Positions 28,027-61,475 of a DNA stretch of 64,000 nucleotides are shown here, piece after piece (position 1 is the stretch's first letter; each line of letters opens with the position of its first letter). The translations under genes were made by a program, and so were the position numbers. Origin of the DNA: Campylobacteraceae bacterium (GTDB taxonomy: Bacteria; Campylobacterota; Campylobacteria; Campylobacterales; Arcobacteraceae); contig JABSOM010000006.1 of the NCBI GenBank assembly GCA_013215945.1, forward strand, positions 1 to 64,000. The letters run 5' to 3'. The notes under the pieces were generated by a model that worked only from the letters and a program-made list of their open reading frames with translations, was not told where the DNA came from and searched no databases.

Positions 28027-30363
28027 ATGGGCTTAAGTAATGACTACTTTTTATTATACCATGGGAAAAACATAGAACAAACAAGTACCTACGAAACTGC
28101 TGATTATAAAAATACAGAAGATTTTTTTGATATTTCTGCACTTATTTTAAGCGCCAATAGAAAAGACTATGAAAAATTCATACAATTGGATAGTTTTAAA
28201 ACACTTCTTTCCTTAATTACAAGACGTGAAATAAAATCTTTAGATGATTTACACCAGTGCCAGTATTGTTTATTACAAAGCATACAAAATGATACACAAA
28301 AGGAGCATATTGATAAACTGCATTCTGCTTTTGAATATTTAAAAAATGAAAAAATCATTAATGAAGCCAATTATAATAAACTTATCTCTTTATTTGACCC
28401 AGAAGAATTGGGTGTTTGTGATGAAATAGATGTAAGTGATGATATTATTATTGAAGAAAATCTCTCTTTCCAAGATAATAAAATACTTATAGAAGATTTA
28501 ATTACAGAACTAAATGATGTATTTTCTTCAAAAGACTTAAAAAATGAACTTACAGATTCATTCACATATTTAAACAATCAAAAATTTTCAATTGGAATTA
28601 CTGGTGTTATGAATGCTGGAAAATCGACTATGTTAAATGCATTAATGGGACAAGAAATTCTAGGTTCAGCCGTAGTTCCTGAAACTGCAAACTTAACTAT
28701 TGTAAAATATGGTAAACCCAGCGCAAAAGTTTTTTATTGGAATAAAAAAGAATGGGCAAAAATTGAAAAAAGTGCACAAGAAATTGCCTCAATCAAAGAT
28801 TTTATAAATGAAACACATAAAATATTTGGAGATAAACTTCATAATATTATTAAAGAAGAATCTTTTTGTGAAAATGTAGACATCCATAATCTGGCTGCTT
28901 ATACGTCAGCAGAAGCATCAGGTAAAAAATGTAATTTGGTAAAATATGTAGAATTAAAATCAGATTTAAATTTTTTAAAAGATGGTATTGAAATAGTTGA
29001 TACCCCAGGACTTGATGATCCAGTAATACAGCGAGAAGAAATAACAAAAGAATATTTAAGTACTTGTGATTTAATGCTTCATTTAATGAATGTAAGCCAA
29101 AGTGCAACGCTAAAAGATGTTGAATTTATAATTGATGCTTTGTTATACCAAAACGTTAGTAAACTATTAATTGTAATTACAAGAGCAGATACCGTTTCTA
29201 AAAAAGAGTTGGATGAAGTAATATCTTATACAAAAAAATCCATTAAAGCACAACTTAGCAAACAAAATAAAGATTCATCTTTAGATTATATTTTAAAAAG
29301 CATACAGTTTATTCCTATTTCTGGGAAAATGGCACTTTTACACAGAACAGGAAGAGCACAAGAAGCTAGAGATGCAGGTTATGAATTAGAACAAACAGGT
29401 ATTTTAGAAATTGAAGAATACTTGCATGAAACCTTATTTGGAACAGGTTCATCAAAATCTGAACTAATAATAAGAAGTGTTAAAAATAAACTCTTAAAAA
29501 CAATTGATAAAGAAATCAAATCTTTTAATTACGAACTTATCTTACTTGGAAAATCAAAAGAAGAATTACAGAATGATTTACATGATTTTAATAAAACGAA
29601 ACTAAAAAATGAACTTGTATTTAAAAATATGAATTCTGATATTCTTGGATATAAAAATGATGCAAAAACATATATTCAAACTTTAGAAACTTTTTTAAGT
29701 AATGAACTTTTGGATCTGCAAAAAATAATAAAACAACGTGTATTCTCTGATGTAAAATATTCTTTTGAGAAAACAAAAAAACGTCCTTTGGGAGAGCGAA
29801 TAAAAGTAATTATACAAACAGCAATCAAAGATGGAATCATAGATATTATTAGAGATTATAGATATAAGTTTATCAAAAAATCAGAAAGTATAGGCGAAGT
29901 TTGTGAACAGAAATATCAAGATTATGGTTTTTCAATGGGGCATAAAAATGACAATTTTAATGCAATGGGTTTTTTTCAGGATGATTTTAAAAGTGGTTTT
30001 TTAACCGCTTCAAATGAAGTCTTAATTACAAAAATTTTAAAAGAAGTGTTAAAAACAAAAGCAAGTAAACTCAATGAATTTGACAGAAATATTGAAGCCT
30101 ATATTAAAGAAGAATTTGGCAGTATTGAAGAAAATATAAAAAATAAAGCGAAAGAAATTTCCCTTATTTTAATGGAGAATTTTTTTACTGCTTTAGTAGA
30201 ACCTCTTAAAACATTTGAAGAACGCTTAAATAAAGATGTTCAAGCCTTAGAAAAATCTTTAAAAACCTTTGAGAATAATGAAATAAATAAAGATGAAGAA
30301 ACAATACATATTCATAAAAGAATAAAAAAACTTGAAACAATCTCTAAAGGAATAAAAATATGA
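28027..30363 (+). CDS. Dynamin-like GTPase, first of a pair (DLP1-like)
   Basis: This large GTPase has 778 residues. The P-loop GVMNAGKSTMLNAL lies near residue 197, with G3 DTPGLDDP, G4 ITRAD and a long helical stalk-like C-terminal half. About 190 residues precede the GTPase domain and show no motif I recognise. It overlaps a second dynamin-like gene by 4 bp (ATGA). In C. jejuni two adjacent dynamin-like proteins form a hetero-oligomer that tethers membranes; the order and sizes here fit that pair. The ribosome site GGAGAACAA is good. Role in the cell is not established from sequence. Confidence 0.85.
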   Translation: MGLSNDYFLLYHGKNIEQTSTYETADYKNTEDFFDISALILSANRKDYEKFIQLDSFKTLLSLITRREIKSLDDLHQCQYCLLQSIQNDTQKEHIDKLHSAFEYLKNEKIINEANYNKLISLFDPEELGVCDEIDVSDDIIIEENLSFQDNKILIEDLITELNDVFSSKDLKNELTDSFTYLNNQKFSIGITGVMNAGKSTMLNALMGQEILGSAVVPETANLTIVKYGKPSAKVFYWNKKEWAKIEKSAQEIASIKDFINETHKIFGDKLHNIIKEESFCENVDIHNLAAYTSAEASGKKCNLVKYVELKSDLNFLKDGIEIVDTPGLDDPVIQREEITKEYLSTCDLMLHLMNVSQSATLKDVEFIIDALLYQNVSKLLIVITRADTVSKKELDEVISYTKKSIKAQLSKQNKDSSLDYILKSIQFIPISGKMALLHRTGRAQEARDAGYELEQTGILEIEEYLHETLFGTGSSKSELIIRSVKNKLLKTIDKEIKSFNYELILLGKSKEELQNDLHDFNKTKLKNELVFKNMNSDILGYKNDAKTYIQTLETFLSNELLDLQKIIKQRVFSDVKYSFEKTKKRPLGERIKVIIQTAIKDGIIDIIRDYRYKFIKKSESIGEVCEQKYQDYGFSMGHKNDNFNAMGFFQDDFKSGFLTASNEVLITKILKEVLKTKASKLNEFDRNIEAYIKEEFGSIEENIKNKAKEISLILMENFFTALVEPLKTFEERLNKDVQALEKSLKTFENNEINKDEETIHIHKRIKKLETISKGIKI

Positions 30364-32372
30364 GTATCTTAAATTCTTTTGTGCTTGAATACAATGACAA
30401 ATATATCCAAAAAGAAATTGTATATGAAGAGGGGCTATTAGGAGATATAAATAAAATCTCTGCTGCTTTATTAAACGATACTTTTTTACCATCCGTTCAA
30501 TTAAAATCTATTTTAGATAAACAATTAAGACGGGCAAGATATCCCATGGAAGTCGCTATTACTGGGCAATTTTCTTCTGGTAAATCAACTTTTTTAAATG
30601 CGTTATTATCAAGAAATATATTACCAACGGGAATCACACCTGTAACATCAAAAGTGAATTTTATTAATTATGGAGAAGAATACAAACTAAAAATAACCTA
30701 TTATTCAGGTGCACAAGAATATGCAAGTATTGATAAAATTGCTGAATTTACCGATCAAAGAGAAGATGAAATGAAAAACATCAAATATCTAACTCTTTAT
30801 GCACCTATGGATATTTTAAAAGAAATCTCATTCGTAGATACTCCTGGACTTAATTCACAGTCACAAAGTGATACAGATACAACCAGGAAAGTATTAAGAG
30901 ATGTGGGAGGTATTATTTGGTTAACCCTAATAGATAATGCAGGAAAAATGTCTGAGTCCCAAGTACTTGAAGAATACATGGAAAATTTTAAAAATAAATC
31001 TTTATGTGTCTTAAATCAAAAAGACAAATTCACCCAAGAACAAATTGAAACAACTACTGCTTATGTAGAAAAAAAGTTTTCTAAGTATTTTGCACAAGTC
31101 ACACCAATATCGGCGAAAATGGCACTTGAATCAAGAGCTTCACAAAAAGAAATTCTTATTCAAGATGAATATGAAAAAATTGTTAAGAGTTTTAAAGACG
31201 AGTTGAAAAATCATGAAACACAAGATTTAGATTTTTTTGAAGAATCTTTCTCAAAATACCATGAAACAGTAGCTAAGATAGAAAATACAGATGCTTCTAC
31301 TAACAATCAACAACTATTAGACTCTAATATTCAAGAAGTATTGGATTTCATAGAAAATACGATACGTCCACAAGCGCAAGAAGATAAAGAATTTGCTATC
31401 AAAAAAGATTTAAAAGGTATTTGTGATATTTTAATTAAAGAATACTCTACTATTATTGGTGTATATGATAGTCTTATTACTATTTTAGAGGATTCTGATG
31501 AAATATTAGTGGCTTTTGATAATATTTATAAGGTGTATTCTAAAGAACTTTTTGGGATTTATAACTCCTTAGAAACAATTATGGAAAAAATATCTCATGA
31601 AACATTCAAAAATATAAAAACAGTAAAAGCGCACAGATATGAAGAAAAAACTTCTTTTTTATCAAAAGACAATTTTCTTAAAATTGAGTATGATACTTAC
31701 TATATTGATTCAAATAATGTATACAAAAACTTATTTTATGATGACCAAACCATTGATAAAATGTTTAAAAAAACGATTAAAGAATTAAAAAAGATTGAGA
31801 TTAATACAGACGAAGCCTATAGAAATGTTTACAGAATTTTAAAACACAATGTGGCTAGATGGCAAGAACCTTATGAGTTAATACGAAAACAAAGAGAAAT
31901 AGCTTCTGATTTAGAGTTTTCTATGACAAGACATTTTGCTGCAAAAGTATATGAAAATGTTCTGGTTAATTATCATCGAGCTATTTTAGAGAATATTTCT
32001 GCTTTAAGAAAAAAGTTTGCATACTTTAATGGAGCTTTATCGTATTCTTATATACAAACAACGCAGGCAACTATTGCTCATTTTGAACAGCAAATTGCAG
32101 AATCTGTCATTTTATATGAAAAAGAACCCACAAAATTTACCGTAGCACATCCAAGAGAAGATGAAATATTAACCAAACTAAAAGCCAATTTTGCATTTGA
32201 AAAAATCGAAGATTTTCTAACATCAAAACGTAACTATCTTTATAAAATAATTAAGTATTCAAAAGAACAATATTTAGAAATCAATGAAAAAAGTATTCTT
32301 TTTGTAAAAAATAAAAAAGAAAACTATATAGAAAAAATAAGTGCTTTGGAAAAAATAAGAGATGACATTTAA
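30360..32372 (+). CDS. Dynamin-like GTPase, second of a pair (DLP2-like)
   Basis: This 670-residue dynamin-like GTPase has P-loop GQFSSGKST (69-76 region), switch Thr in GITPVTSKVNF, G3 VDTPGLNSQS, and G4 LNQKDKF. The C-terminal 450 residues are long charged helices typical of a dynamin stalk, with a hydrophobic-poor tip. The GTPase domain begins close to the N-terminus, unlike its partner, matching the asymmetric pair in Campylobacter. Its stop lies 6 nt from the stop of the convergent kinase-like gene, leaving no room for a terminator. Confidence 0.85.
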   Translation: MSILNSFVLEYNDKYIQKEIVYEEGLLGDINKISAALLNDTFLPSVQLKSILDKQLRRARYPMEVAITGQFSSGKSTFLNALLSRNILPTGITPVTSKVNFINYGEEYKLKITYYSGAQEYASIDKIAEFTDQREDEMKNIKYLTLYAPMDILKEISFVDTPGLNSQSQSDTDTTRKVLRDVGGIIWLTLIDNAGKMSESQVLEEYMENFKNKSLCVLNQKDKFTQEQIETTTAYVEKKFSKYFAQVTPISAKMALESRASQKEILIQDEYEKIVKSFKDELKNHETQDLDFFEESFSKYHETVAKIENTDASTNNQQLLDSNIQEVLDFIENTIRPQAQEDKEFAIKKDLKGICDILIKEYSTIIGVYDSLITILEDSDEILVAFDNIYKVYSKELFGIYNSLETIMEKISHETFKNIKTVKAHRYEEKTSFLSKDNFLKIEYDTYYIDSNNVYKNLFYDDQTIDKMFKKTIKELKKIEINTDEAYRNVYRILKHNVARWQEPYELIRKQREIASDLEFSMTRHFAAKVYENVLVNYHRAILENISALRKKFAYFNGALSYSYIQTTQATIAHFEQQIAESVILYEKEPTKFTVAHPREDEILTKLKANFAFEKIEDFLTSKRNYLYKIIKYSKEQYLEINEKSILFVKNKKENYIEKISALEKIRDDI

Positions 32373-32378
32373 AAAGTC

Positions 32379-33179
32379 TTAAAACTCATTCTTTAATAGA
32401 GATAATATTTTTTTTATAAATATATCTCTTTTACTTTTTTGATTGTAGGCATTAAACCATAAAAGAGACAAAGCTAAATATAGAATTTTAAACAAATATA
32501 GTTTATTTTTATTGCAGCTTTGTTTATTTTTAAAATACTGCTTTAAAAATGATTCTTCCTCTTTTTTATTAAAATCATATTCAATAATTACATTCGCTAA
32601 ATCAAAGTACTTATCGTTCAGGCAAGAATATTCCCAATCAATTAGTTTTACCTCTTTATTAAATAATATATTGCCTTGGTTTAAATCATTGTGACAAAAA
32701 ACCAACTCACTGCTATAATCCTTAATAGCAGAGAAATAAAAATCTAGTTTACTAATTGTTTCTTTATTTAAACACTCTTTATTATAGTTTTTATATTCAT
32801 TTTGTAAATCAACTGGCTGGGACCTTAAGTTAATACTGTGAAGCGTACTTAAACACAGAACCAATGAAGACATGCCTTTTTTAGATAAGGTCTCTTTATG
32901 CACACCTTCTATGTAATCACAGAGCATTAAATCAGCATTAGAACTTAGGAAATATGCTTTTGCTGCAAGGTTGTTCTCATAGGCAAGATTTTGATGGAAA
33001 AATTCATTTTTTCTATTGATAGAAATTTTTGTATTTAATTCTCTAAGAAGATAAGTCTTTTTTTTACTATATAACAAATAATTTGTATTGCATAAGCCTT
33101 GATTATTCAATAGTTTTAATTCTAGAAGTTTTAAGTCTTTAAAAAAATCTAACTCTTGAATTTTAGAAATATCTAGCAT
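32379..33179 (-). CDS. Choline/ethanolamine-kinase-like phosphotransferase (LicA type)
   Basis: This 266-residue protein has the aminoglycoside/choline kinase fold. The Brenner catalytic loop FCHNDLNQGNIL, the metal-binding LIDWEYS and the following FDLANVIIEYDF are typical of choline and ethanolamine kinases and LicA. In LicA systems the product feeds phosphocholine decoration of surface glycans, but no licB, licC or licD partner is nearby. Thiamine or another alcohol could be the substrate instead. A 26-codon micro-ORF lies 32 nt upstream in the same direction. Confidence 0.75.
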   Translation of the reverse strand: MLDISKIQELDFFKDLKLLELKLLNNQGLCNTNYLLYSKKKTYLLRELNTKISINRKNEFFHQNLAYENNLAAKAYFLSSNADLMLCDYIEGVHKETLSKKGMSSLVLCLSTLHSINLRSQPVDLQNEYKNYNKECLNKETISKLDFYFSAIKDYSSELVFCHNDLNQGNILFNKEVKLIDWEYSCLNDKYFDLANVIIEYDFNKKEEESFLKQYFKNKQSCNKNKLYLFKILYLALSLLWFNAYNQKSKRDIFIKKILSLLKNEF

Positions 33180-33211
33180 AGTATGTATCTTATTTCTTTT
33201 ATAATAAAATC

Positions 33212-33292
33212 CTAGTCTTTATTTAATTTAAAAGCGAAAAATACGCTAATTATTAGCATAATACTAAGATAAATATACGCGTCATCTGGCAT
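33212..33292 (-). CDS. 26-residue single-TM membrane micro-protein
   Basis: This short ORF begins ATG at 33292, preceded by a strong AAAAAGGA ribosome site at ideal spacing. It encodes an acidic N-terminus (MPDDAY), a hydrophobic helix of about 16 residues (IYLSIMLIISVFFAF) and a basic tail (KLNKD), ending with TAG at 33212. This is the layout of real small membrane subunits or regulators. It precedes the choline-kinase-like gene by 32 nt on the same strand. I do not recognise it; chance cannot be excluded at this length. Confidence 0.5.
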   Translation of the reverse strand: MPDDAYIYLSIMLIISVFFAFKLNKD

Positions 33293-33417
33293 TTTAGTCC
33301 TTTTTATAATTTAATTATATAAAAACTTTACATAAAAAACACTTTTTTGTCTAGACTTTAATCATTTATAAAGTTATTTAATGCTTTAATAATAAACTAT
33401 ATTATTAAAGGAAAACA

Positions 33418-33717
33418 GTGCAAAAAATTAAAAATTTCTCTGACCAAGATATTCTTTATATTAAAAATCTAATGTTAATAGAAAAAGAAAAAAATAATTC
33501 TAAAATAAAAGATATTTCAAGGCTTAAAGAGAATACAATCTTGGTTCTTATATCAATCTTTGTTTTTATTTTATGCAATTATCTTTATACAAAAATCAAT
33601 GCATTATTTTATTTTGAAGATGTAAATACATATAATGTATTTTTATCATCACTTAATATCTTTATTCCACTATCAATTACAGTAGTACTAGTAGGTATTT
33701 ATATTCTAAAAAAGTGA
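33418..33717 (+). CDS. Small two-TM membrane protein of unknown function
   Basis: This 99-residue protein starts with GTG at 33418, preceded by AAAGGAAAACA. A charged helical N-terminal half of about 40 residues (rich in Lys, Glu, Asp) is followed by two TM helices (NTILVLISIFVFILCNYLY; IFIPLSITVVLVGIYIL). It stands alone between divergent and convergent genes. No family recognised. Confidence 0.65.
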   Translation: MQKIKNFSDQDILYIKNLMLIEKEKNNSKIKDISRLKENTILVLISIFVFILCNYLYTKINALFYFEDVNTYNVFLSSLNIFIPLSITVVLVGIYILKK

Positions 33718-33763
33718 GTATCTCACACATAAAAGACGCTCACTTTAATAAAATTTAATTAAA

Positions 33764-35335
33764 CTAAGCTTCTAAAGATACTTTATGTAAATAATCTTTA
33801 AAGGATGTACTTTCTTTTGGATCTTCTTTGTAGGCATTTATTAAATCACTAATATAATCTAATAATTTTGAAGCTTCAACTTTTTTCCCTATTTTTTGTG
33901 CAAAACGACTGAGTTTTTCACCTTCTAAATTTCCACCTAATATTACTTCATAACCTTCAACTCTCTTACCCTCATCATTTCTAACCTTAAGGCCAGTAAA
34001 ACCTATATCAGAAATTTGAGGGTGTGAACAGGCATTTCCACAACCAGAAATTGCAATAGTAATATTCTCATCAAAATTAGGGAATCTGTTCTCAAGTTCA
34101 ACTAATATCTTTTTTGAAAACTCTTTTGTTTCAGTAATTCCAAATTTACAAAACTCGTTTCCTGTACATGAATTTAATCTTGCTCTAAAAGGACTTGGTT
34201 TATAAGGATAACCCAAAGCATCAAATTCATCTGCTAAGGCTTGAGCATCTTCATCTTTTACACCATAAACAACAAAGTTCTGAGTAGATGTAAGCGCCAA
34301 ACCTTTTGCATTGTATTTACTTAAGATTTCATGCATGGCTTTAAAATCTTCCCCTGCAACACGACCTGAATTTGTAGCGAAACCTATATACGATTCACCT
34401 TCTTGTTTTGCTTTATTAATTCCAAAATGATTTCTGTGTTCAAAAGAAGTAATTATAGGTTCTTTTTCACCAACTTGTAATGCATAACCCAATTTTTCTT
34501 CAATTTTGGCTACAAATTTTTCCAGTCCCCATTCATTTACAAGATGTCTTACTCTTGCTTTTCCACGATTTGCTCTGTTTCCATGTTCTCTAAAAATTTC
34601 AGCACAAACAATTGCTATTTCTTGAACTTGTGATTCTTTTACATAACGATTGGCTCTAAATGCAATTTGCTTAGATTTGGATAAACCTCCACCTACACAT
34701 AAATCAAACAATACCTCATCATTTTCATCTTTAAATGCTGTAAAGGATATATCTTGTACTTCGTGTGTTGGACAGTGACAGGCGCAACCAGATACCCCTA
34801 TTTTATATTTTCTTGGAAAATTGCAAAATTGATCATCATTTTTATCAAAGTACGTATCAATTGAACGAACCAAGGGGCTGGCATCAAAAATTTCCTTTTT
34901 ATCAATTCCTGCTACGGGACAGGACATAATTGGTCTGGGACCATCACCTGATGCCATTCTTGAGGTTAAATTAACACTGTCTAAGAGTTCGAAAATTTTA
35001 GGAATATCTTTGATTTGAATAAAATGAAACTGAATATTTTGTCTTGTTGTAAAATCAACCAAACCTTGTGCATATTCTTGACCTATTTTTGCCATAACGC
35101 CTAATTGTTCTAAATTCATAGTAGTATCAACTAATTTAACACGTTTCATGAAATATTTTTTATCTTCTGTTTCATCATTATTAATGTGTGGATACATTCC
35201 ATACCACTTTAATAATCCAATATGCTCCTCACTTAAAGGCGTTCCACCTTTGGCTTCTTCAAACATATCTTGTACTACATGTAAAGGGTTTCTAGAAGCT
35301 TTTAGTATTTCTAGTTTTGATAATTCTTTGCTCAT
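33764..35335 (-). CDS. Ferredoxin-type nitrite/sulfite reductase (siroheme, [4Fe-4S])
   Basis: This 523-residue assimilatory reductase performs six-electron reduction of nitrite to ammonia or sulfite to sulfide. The C-terminal NSCTGNEFCKFG (CxxxxxC) and SGCGNACSHPQ (CxxxC) supply the four Cys that hold the cluster and bridge to siroheme. The two-fold repeated domain structure is visible: SGCACHCPTHEVQDI in the N half mirrors SGCGNACSHPQISDI in the C half. The ribosome site is GTGGAGC. No flavoprotein partner is adjacent, so electrons likely come from ferredoxin. Nitrite versus sulfite cannot be decided by eye. Confidence 0.85.
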   Translation of the reverse strand: MSKELSKLEILKASRNPLHVVQDMFEEAKGGTPLSEEHIGLLKWYGMYPHINNDETEDKKYFMKRVKLVDTTMNLEQLGVMAKIGQEYAQGLVDFTTRQNIQFHFIQIKDIPKIFELLDSVNLTSRMASGDGPRPIMSCPVAGIDKKEIFDASPLVRSIDTYFDKNDDQFCNFPRKYKIGVSGCACHCPTHEVQDISFTAFKDENDEVLFDLCVGGGLSKSKQIAFRANRYVKESQVQEIAIVCAEIFREHGNRANRGKARVRHLVNEWGLEKFVAKIEEKLGYALQVGEKEPIITSFEHRNHFGINKAKQEGESYIGFATNSGRVAGEDFKAMHEILSKYNAKGLALTSTQNFVVYGVKDEDAQALADEFDALGYPYKPSPFRARLNSCTGNEFCKFGITETKEFSKKILVELENRFPNFDENITIAISGCGNACSHPQISDIGFTGLKVRNDEGKRVEGYEVILGGNLEGEKLSRFAQKIGKKVEASKLLDYISDLINAYKEDPKESTSFKDYLHKVSLEA

Positions 35336-60198: not shown

Positions 60199-61475
60199 TT
60201 GTTTTATTTACTTTTTTTGGTCTTTTGATTTTAGGTTTAAGAATAGGCGTTGTTGTTGGGATTAGTGGAATAGTTGGCATTATGACCATATCTGGTTTTG
60301 ATTTCATGTCTGTTGTTCCCCAAAAAATATTCAATGGTTTAAATCTTTTTCCATTTTTAGCCATGCCATTTTTTATTTTAGCAGGTGAAATTATGAATCA
60401 TATTGGAATTACAAGTAAAATAATTGCTTTTGCAAATGTTCTAGTAGGACATAAACCAGGAGGATTAGCCCATGCAAATATGATTTCTTCTGTGTTTTTT
60501 GCAGGAGTAAGTGGAGCAGCTACTAGTGATGCGGCCGCTTTTGGAAGAACACTAGTACCAGCCATGGTAAAAGCAGGTTATGACAGACCCTTTGCCTGTG
60601 CAGTTACAGCAGCAGGTTCTATTATTGGCCCTACTATTCCACCTTCTGGTTTAATGGTAGTTTATGGTTCTTTAATGGGAGTATCCATTGGGGGTTTATT
60701 TGCAGCAGGAATTCTTCCTGGTATTTTAATTTGTATTGTTTGTATGATGGTAATTACTGTTGTATCAAAACGTAGAAATTTTCCAATGGCTGCAAAAAGA
60801 GCTTCTTTTAAAGATGTTATTCATGCGTTAAAAGAAGCTTATTTAGCACTGATTATGCCTTTAATCATTTTAGGTGGAATTATTTTTGGTATTTTTACTC
60901 CAACAGAAGCTGCTTCAATTGCTGTTGCTTATGCTTTAATTTTAGGCGTTTTTGTATATAGAAATTTAAGTTTTTCTGCTTTGTCTTCTATTATTCTAAG
61001 TACTTCAAGAATTTGTGGAGTAATTTTCTTAATTATTGCTTCTGCTTCTATTTTAGGTTGGTATTTAAGTTTTGAACAAATCCCTCAAGCTTTGACTTCG
61101 GCAATTATTGGGATTACAGAAAACCCCTATTTGATTTTATTACTGATTATTGTGTTTTTACTTGTGGTTGGAATGATTATGGATATTACAGCCATGTTAA
61201 TTATTTTAGCGCCTATTTTAGTGCCTATAACAGCTAGCATTGGAATTGATCCCTTACATGCAGGTATTATTTTTGTTCTTGCTTTAAATATATCACTCAT
61301 GACTCCTCCTATTGGAGCTTGTCTTTTTGTACTGTCTTCTGTTACAGGAGAAAAAATGGAACGTATAGCTGCTAGTTTATGGCCATTTTTAATTGTAGAA
61401 ATAGCTGTATTATTTTTGTTTGCTTATTGGGCAGATTTTGCTTTATTTATTCCAAGGTTATTGGGATTTTTATAA
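60195..61475 (+). CDS. dctM: TRAP transporter large membrane subunit
   Basis: This 426-residue channel subunit with about 12 TM helices is of the DctM type. Family blocks FFILAGEIMNHIGIT, GVSGAATSDAAAFG, GPTIPPSGLMVVYG and NISLMTPPIGACLFV are present. It uses a Na+ or H+ gradient to import a substrate delivered by DctP. Context suggests a sugar acid. Confidence 0.93.
   Translation: MIVLFTFFGLLILGLRIGVVVGISGIVGIMTISGFDFMSVVPQKIFNGLNLFPFLAMPFFILAGEIMNHIGITSKIIAFANVLVGHKPGGLAHANMISSVFFAGVSGAATSDAAAFGRTLVPAMVKAGYDRPFACAVTAAGSIIGPTIPPSGLMVVYGSLMGVSIGGLFAAGILPGILICIVCMMVITVVSKRRNFPMAAKRASFKDVIHALKEAYLALIMPLIILGGIIFGIFTPTEAASIAVAYALILGVFVYRNLSFSALSSIILSTSRICGVIFLIIASASILGWYLSFEQIPQALTSAIIGITENPYLILLLIIVFLLVVGMIMDITAMLIILAPILVPITASIGIDPLHAGIIFVLALNISLMTPPIGACLFVLSSVTGEKMERIAASLWPFLIVEIAVLFLFAYWADFALFIPRLLGFL

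Follow-up and report, generated by a model that had tools for sequence, protein, structure and literature searches.

A 26-codon open reading frame conserved among Arcobacter relatives very probably encodes a small, predicted single-pass membrane protein

We describe a micro-ORF of 26 codons plus stop (33212..33292, minus strand, ATG to TAG) in a 64-kb stretch of DNA, hereafter the window. Comparison of its sequence across genera indicates that this is very probably a real protein-coding gene. On balance, we consider it reasonably probable that the micro-ORF is a gene for a single-pass inner-membrane microprotein of 25-28 residues, probably an accessory helix to a membrane protein whose gene lies at another place.

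The predicted single-pass membrane product, MPDDAYIYLSIMLIISVFFAFKLNKD (26 aa), has an acidic head (D3, D4), a mostly hydrophobic stretch from position 6 to 21 with a Kyte-Doolittle maximum of 2.6 (15-residue window) and the tail KLNKD. The sequence upstream of the start is attataaaaaggactaaaATG. A Shine-Dalgarno-like site, AAAAAGGA (33298..33305, minus strand), lies 5 nt before the ATG and is the same in the close relative G001. The first-pass annotation had drawn the micro-ORF in just this way, with a ribosome site, acidic head, hydrophobic helix and basic tail, 32 nt before a kinase-like gene. A possible sigma-70-type promoter, TAGACA-17-TAAAGT, was located at 33325..33353 (minus strand, 9/12 match); promoter-like sites in the scanned region show no excess, with 14 found against 12.4 (sd 3.4) in shuffles. 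In the whole window, two ATG ORFs combine a Shine-Dalgarno-like site with equal hydrophobicity, compared with 1.05 (sd 1.24) expected from 20 first-order Markov windows; for the 238-nt intergenic stretch of the micro-ORF, 0.17% of 3000 simulations contained such an ORF. Because about one ORF of this kind is expected per window, the evidence for a gene lies in conservation and not in these surface features. The sole further ORF in the window to pass the same filter lies at 61356-61475 (plus strand) and, by eye, presumably reflects an internal start within a larger transporter gene.

A tblastn search of the peptide against 60 relatives recovered an identical sequence in G001 and relatives at 56% (G012), 50% (G011) and 44% (G028) identity. 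Together with the window genome itself (G000), homologues of 25-28 aa that are 42-100% identical are carried by five of the 104 genomes of the family and span three genera. When a profile of the five peptides was searched against the 104 family genomes, the same five were returned at 60.7-66.2 bits, the next match scoring 20.8, with a single strong copy in each carrier genome. A pattern scan of genome contigs from 84,980 species gave 109 pattern matches, among which three micro-ORF loci were confirmed, in NORP36 and EP1 (both Arcobacter sp.) and UBA4036 (Epsilonproteobacteria bacterium); these belong to the five known carriers and are not additional members.

The five genomes provide only four distinct peptides, as those of G000 and G001 are the same, the two genes differing by one synonymous base change. 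Summed in frame over the four distinct rows, the BLOSUM62 score comes to 526. Column permutations of the alignment averaged 134 (sd 50); none of 5000 reached 526 and only 31 of them were stop-free. Read in the five other frames, the four rows contain 6-11 stops. Base differences from the window genome at codon positions 1, 2 and 3 number 10, 5 and 16 for G012, 10, 4 and 18 for G011, and 11, 3 and 16 for G028, with about half falling at third positions and the fewest at second positions. Among differing codons, 5-9 of 17-21 per pair are synonymous (G000/G001 excluded), the majority being nonsynonymous; divergence of the micro-ORF between genera is therefore large. Seven columns are nevertheless invariant in the five rows (P2, Y6, Y8, L9, L13, F19 and N24). 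All five rows have an acidic head, positions 22 and 25 are always K or R, and the C-terminal pattern is K/R-[LI]-N-K/R. Aromatic residues flank the hydrophobic stretch on both sides (Y6 and Y8; [FY]18, F19 and [FWY]21). A Shine-Dalgarno-like sequence, judged by eye, precedes all five copies. Conservation of the frame in relatives had been named by the first-pass annotation as a check on its proposal, and we find the frame, the length to within three residues and the Shine-Dalgarno-like site kept in three genera. The proposal of a real micro-protein is well supported by this cross-genus protein conservation, the permutation test and synteny.

Neighbourhoods spanning roughly 20 kb were compared for the five carrier genomes and showed one shared gene order: three fumarate-reductase-like genes are followed by a pair of dynamin-like genes, then by an interval, and finally by an acetolactate-synthase-like gene. 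A YgjP-like gene lies inside the interval in every carrier. The labels fumarate reductase, YgjP and acetolactate synthase, along with NhaA in the same neighbourhoods, are those that we presume for these genes. In the window, the synteny anchors are two overlapping dynamin-like GTPase genes (28027-30363 and 30360-32372, plus strand), the second of which is matched in 81 of the 104 family genomes at E <= 1e-40. All five micro-ORF copies lie within this one syntenic interval, on the strand opposite the dynamin genes. The direct neighbours differ. In G000 and G001 the micro-ORF adjoins the kinase-like gene, and in G011 and G028 the order is sensor kinase, micro-ORF, nhaA, with a 70-aa ORF that we take to be DUF2892-like between the sensor kinase and the micro-ORF of G028. 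The sensor kinase of G028 has Pfam matches to dCache_2 and HATPase_c. In G011 the start of the micro-ORF and the end of the sensor-kinase gene share 14 nt, and in G012 a 103-aa ORF ends 10 nt before the micro-ORF begins; this spacing is like that of genes in an operon. At E <= 1, neither Pfam nor NCBIfam gives a match for the 103-aa ORF itself (L080 9706-10017, minus strand). Since no adjoining gene is common to all copies, no partner can be named from the neighbourhood.

A lone conserved helix is too short for a catalytic fold, making an accessory helix the most economical reading of the micro-ORF product. Positively charged ends of membrane helices are cytoplasmic according to the positive-inside rule, and the C-terminus of the product is thus expected to be cytoplasmic. 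The peptide would insert N-out/C-in, its acidic N-terminus outside and its basic C-terminus inside. The helix would most likely pack against some larger membrane protein whose gene lies elsewhere, stabilizing or tuning this partner as CydX, CioY, KdpF and AcrZ do theirs. Conservation along the helix has no significant 100-degree periodicity (p = 0.83), and we consequently claim no packing face.

Lone short helices that act by binding a large membrane protein include KdpF, AcrZ and MgtS. The micro-ORF product resembles these in being a predicted lone short helix, but differs in that no partner gene adjoins all its copies; a reference for this class of small membrane proteins is PMC11539335. A second likeness is to CydX and CydY (renamed CioY), which serve cytochrome bd-type oxidases as small subunits (PMC4325964, PMC11955535). 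CydY/CioY binds CioA in Campylobacter jejuni (PMC11955535) and is present in the same phylum, a figure legend (Figure 10) naming Arcobacter butzleri (PMC4325964). Like these subunits, the micro-ORF product is small, of a predicted single-helix membrane type and easily missed by annotation. Unlike them, it lacks in all five rows the tryptophan at the helix start that is a feature of CydX/CydY/CioY (PMC4325964), and in none of the five neighbourhoods is it downstream of cydB or in a cydAB operon. Furthermore, CydA/CioA (PF01654) was matched in none of the five carrier genomes, and in two of five chosen non-carriers (G066 and G107). Identity with CydX/CydY/CioY was rejected on these three grounds.

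Other known families were searched with similar outcome. The four distinct peptides have no NCBIfam match at E <= 1, the best Pfam match of the micro-ORF peptides (16.2 bits) is below the cut-off of 25, and none of the five members matches PHROGs at E <= 0.1; solved structures yielded a single match, which was partial (12.7 bits, E 0.72). An RNA element at this position was rejected, the fold being like that of shuffles (z 0.12), and the two Rfam matches in the region 32300-33900 (microRNA and snoRNA families) are far below their gathering scores. Among the literature matches listed, we recognized no description of this family. The family is apparently new, although ordinary in kind, as far as can be judged from the papers listed; a global small-protein catalogue (PMC11364881) could contain it. 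More tentatively, and with a little less than even confidence, we suggest that this is an undescribed microprotein family, confined to one syntenic interval in a handful of Arcobacter-related genera, and that it supplies a subunit or regulator to a membrane complex for which none has been known.

The flanking genes of genus g9 would make it an accessory helix of an NhaA-type antiporter or of a dCache sensor kinase, which we regard as unlikely: the order of sensor kinase, micro-ORF and nhaA recurs in G011 and G028, and two related sensor kinases lie within the same interval of G012, yet only two of the 30 best nhaA loci, those same two genomes, carry the micro-ORF (one of the 30, L091, begins so close to the end of its contig that no judgement was possible). 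On this count nhaA was rejected as a general link. Among the matches listed, moreover, the NhaA relatives of the window genome are only 45% identical and are on other contigs. Each of ten genomes tested, whether or not it has the micro-ORF, contains 24-89 sensor-kinase matches, numbers too high for the sensor kinase to discriminate. NhaA or the adjoining sensor kinase is probably not the partner of the micro-ORF product.

Equally improbable is a small hydrophobic type I toxin with an antisense RNA, patchily present in a variable interval. Toxins of this type, such as TisB, Fst and AapA, are short, hydrophobic and made from stand-alone mRNAs. The micro-ORF product shares the size and hydrophobicity, and both its patchy presence and the variability of the interval would suit a toxin. 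In contrast to TisB, Fst and AapA, the head is acidic and conserved, each genome has one strong copy, and the spacing to upstream genes in G011 and G012 is unlike that of stand-alone toxin mRNAs; no antisense element was found, in that the region 32300-33900 has no Rfam match of toxin-antisense type and there is no promoter-like site on the plus strand from 32797 to 33365.

The downstream gene encodes a choline/thiamine-kinase-like protein of 266 aa (32379..33179, minus strand). It matches Choline_kinase (8.5e-15) and APH (4e-11) in Pfam, and its best NCBIfam match is a thiamine kinase model at 76.4 bits, far under the cut-off of 299.45; it fits thiamine-kinase, choline-kinase and aminoglycoside-phosphotransferase models at broad-family level only. 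The first-pass annotation implied a tie between the two genes, and the micro-ORF might be a translated leader (uORF) or co-transcribed partner with a role linked to the kinase. They are on the same strand, the micro-ORF stop ending at 33212 and the kinase ATG beginning at 33179 to leave 32 nt, with no terminator-like site found between them, and the arrangement is identical in G001. Against this, kinase matches at E <= 1e-5 are patchily distributed, occurring in 46 of 150 genomes but not in G011, G012 and G028, all of which keep the peptide, and among the 30 best kinase loci the micro-ORF is upstream in G000 and G001 alone; the shuffle-like fold of the RNA around the micro-ORF also offers nothing to a leader. 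Since three of the five carriers lack a kinase match and 28 of the 30 best loci lack the ORF, the implied tie did not hold; to judge from these genomes, the product is not a dedicated kinase partner, and we rate a role tied to the kinase as more doubtful still than an antiporter subunit or a toxin. Least credible of all is a chance ORF without product, for which ORFs of comparable surface features are expected about once in a window of such composition and codon differences between genera are mostly nonsynonymous, but against which stand a protein conserved across genera, a constant frame and length, and synteny.

An accessory microprotein, as we prefer to read the micro-ORF, would be restricted to a part of one bacterial family, the Arcobacter relatives, as far as the genomes searched indicate. 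It is absent from all 60 other stretches that follow the second dynamin gene in the family (ten of them shorter than 6 kb), the best of which scores 10.7 bits as against at least 63.0 where it is present; the same-genus stretches of G002 and G003 both end within 0.5 kb and are thus uninformative on the interval. Mapped onto a tree built from 30 dynamin proteins, the carriers require three changes, a patchy distribution. Because the micro-ORF copies share one place, one old origin followed by several losses is the simplest reading. A 52%-identical tblastn match elsewhere in G002 (E 0.043) was considered as a decayed same-genus copy; it lacks a start codon, is interrupted by one stop and carries charged residues midway, and was taken as most likely due to chance. 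Searches of 398 genomes of the order and 298 of the phylum, two draws that overlap, returned no new member and, beyond the known members, nothing above 24.5 bits, the residual matches listed spanning only part of the profile model. A phage or plasmid origin was also rejected, tblastn of the G011 peptide against phage and plasmid collections giving nothing at E <= 10; in viral contigs, 73 pattern matches included no confirmed relative.

These findings illustrate how a prediction made by reading raw sequence can be supported as coding by comparison across genera, and how the adjoining gene in a single genome can mislead about the role of a microprotein. Genes shorter than 30 codons fall under the usual limit of gene callers, and for that reason such microprotein families stay invisible. 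Tagging or ribosome profiling can now be aimed at a defined gene. The divergent neighbour of the micro-ORF, a 99-aa ORF with a GTG start (33418..33717, plus strand) that we treat as context only, has a frame that is broken in two in the close relative G001 (L002 1078-1376, minus strand), where the micro-ORF is intact.
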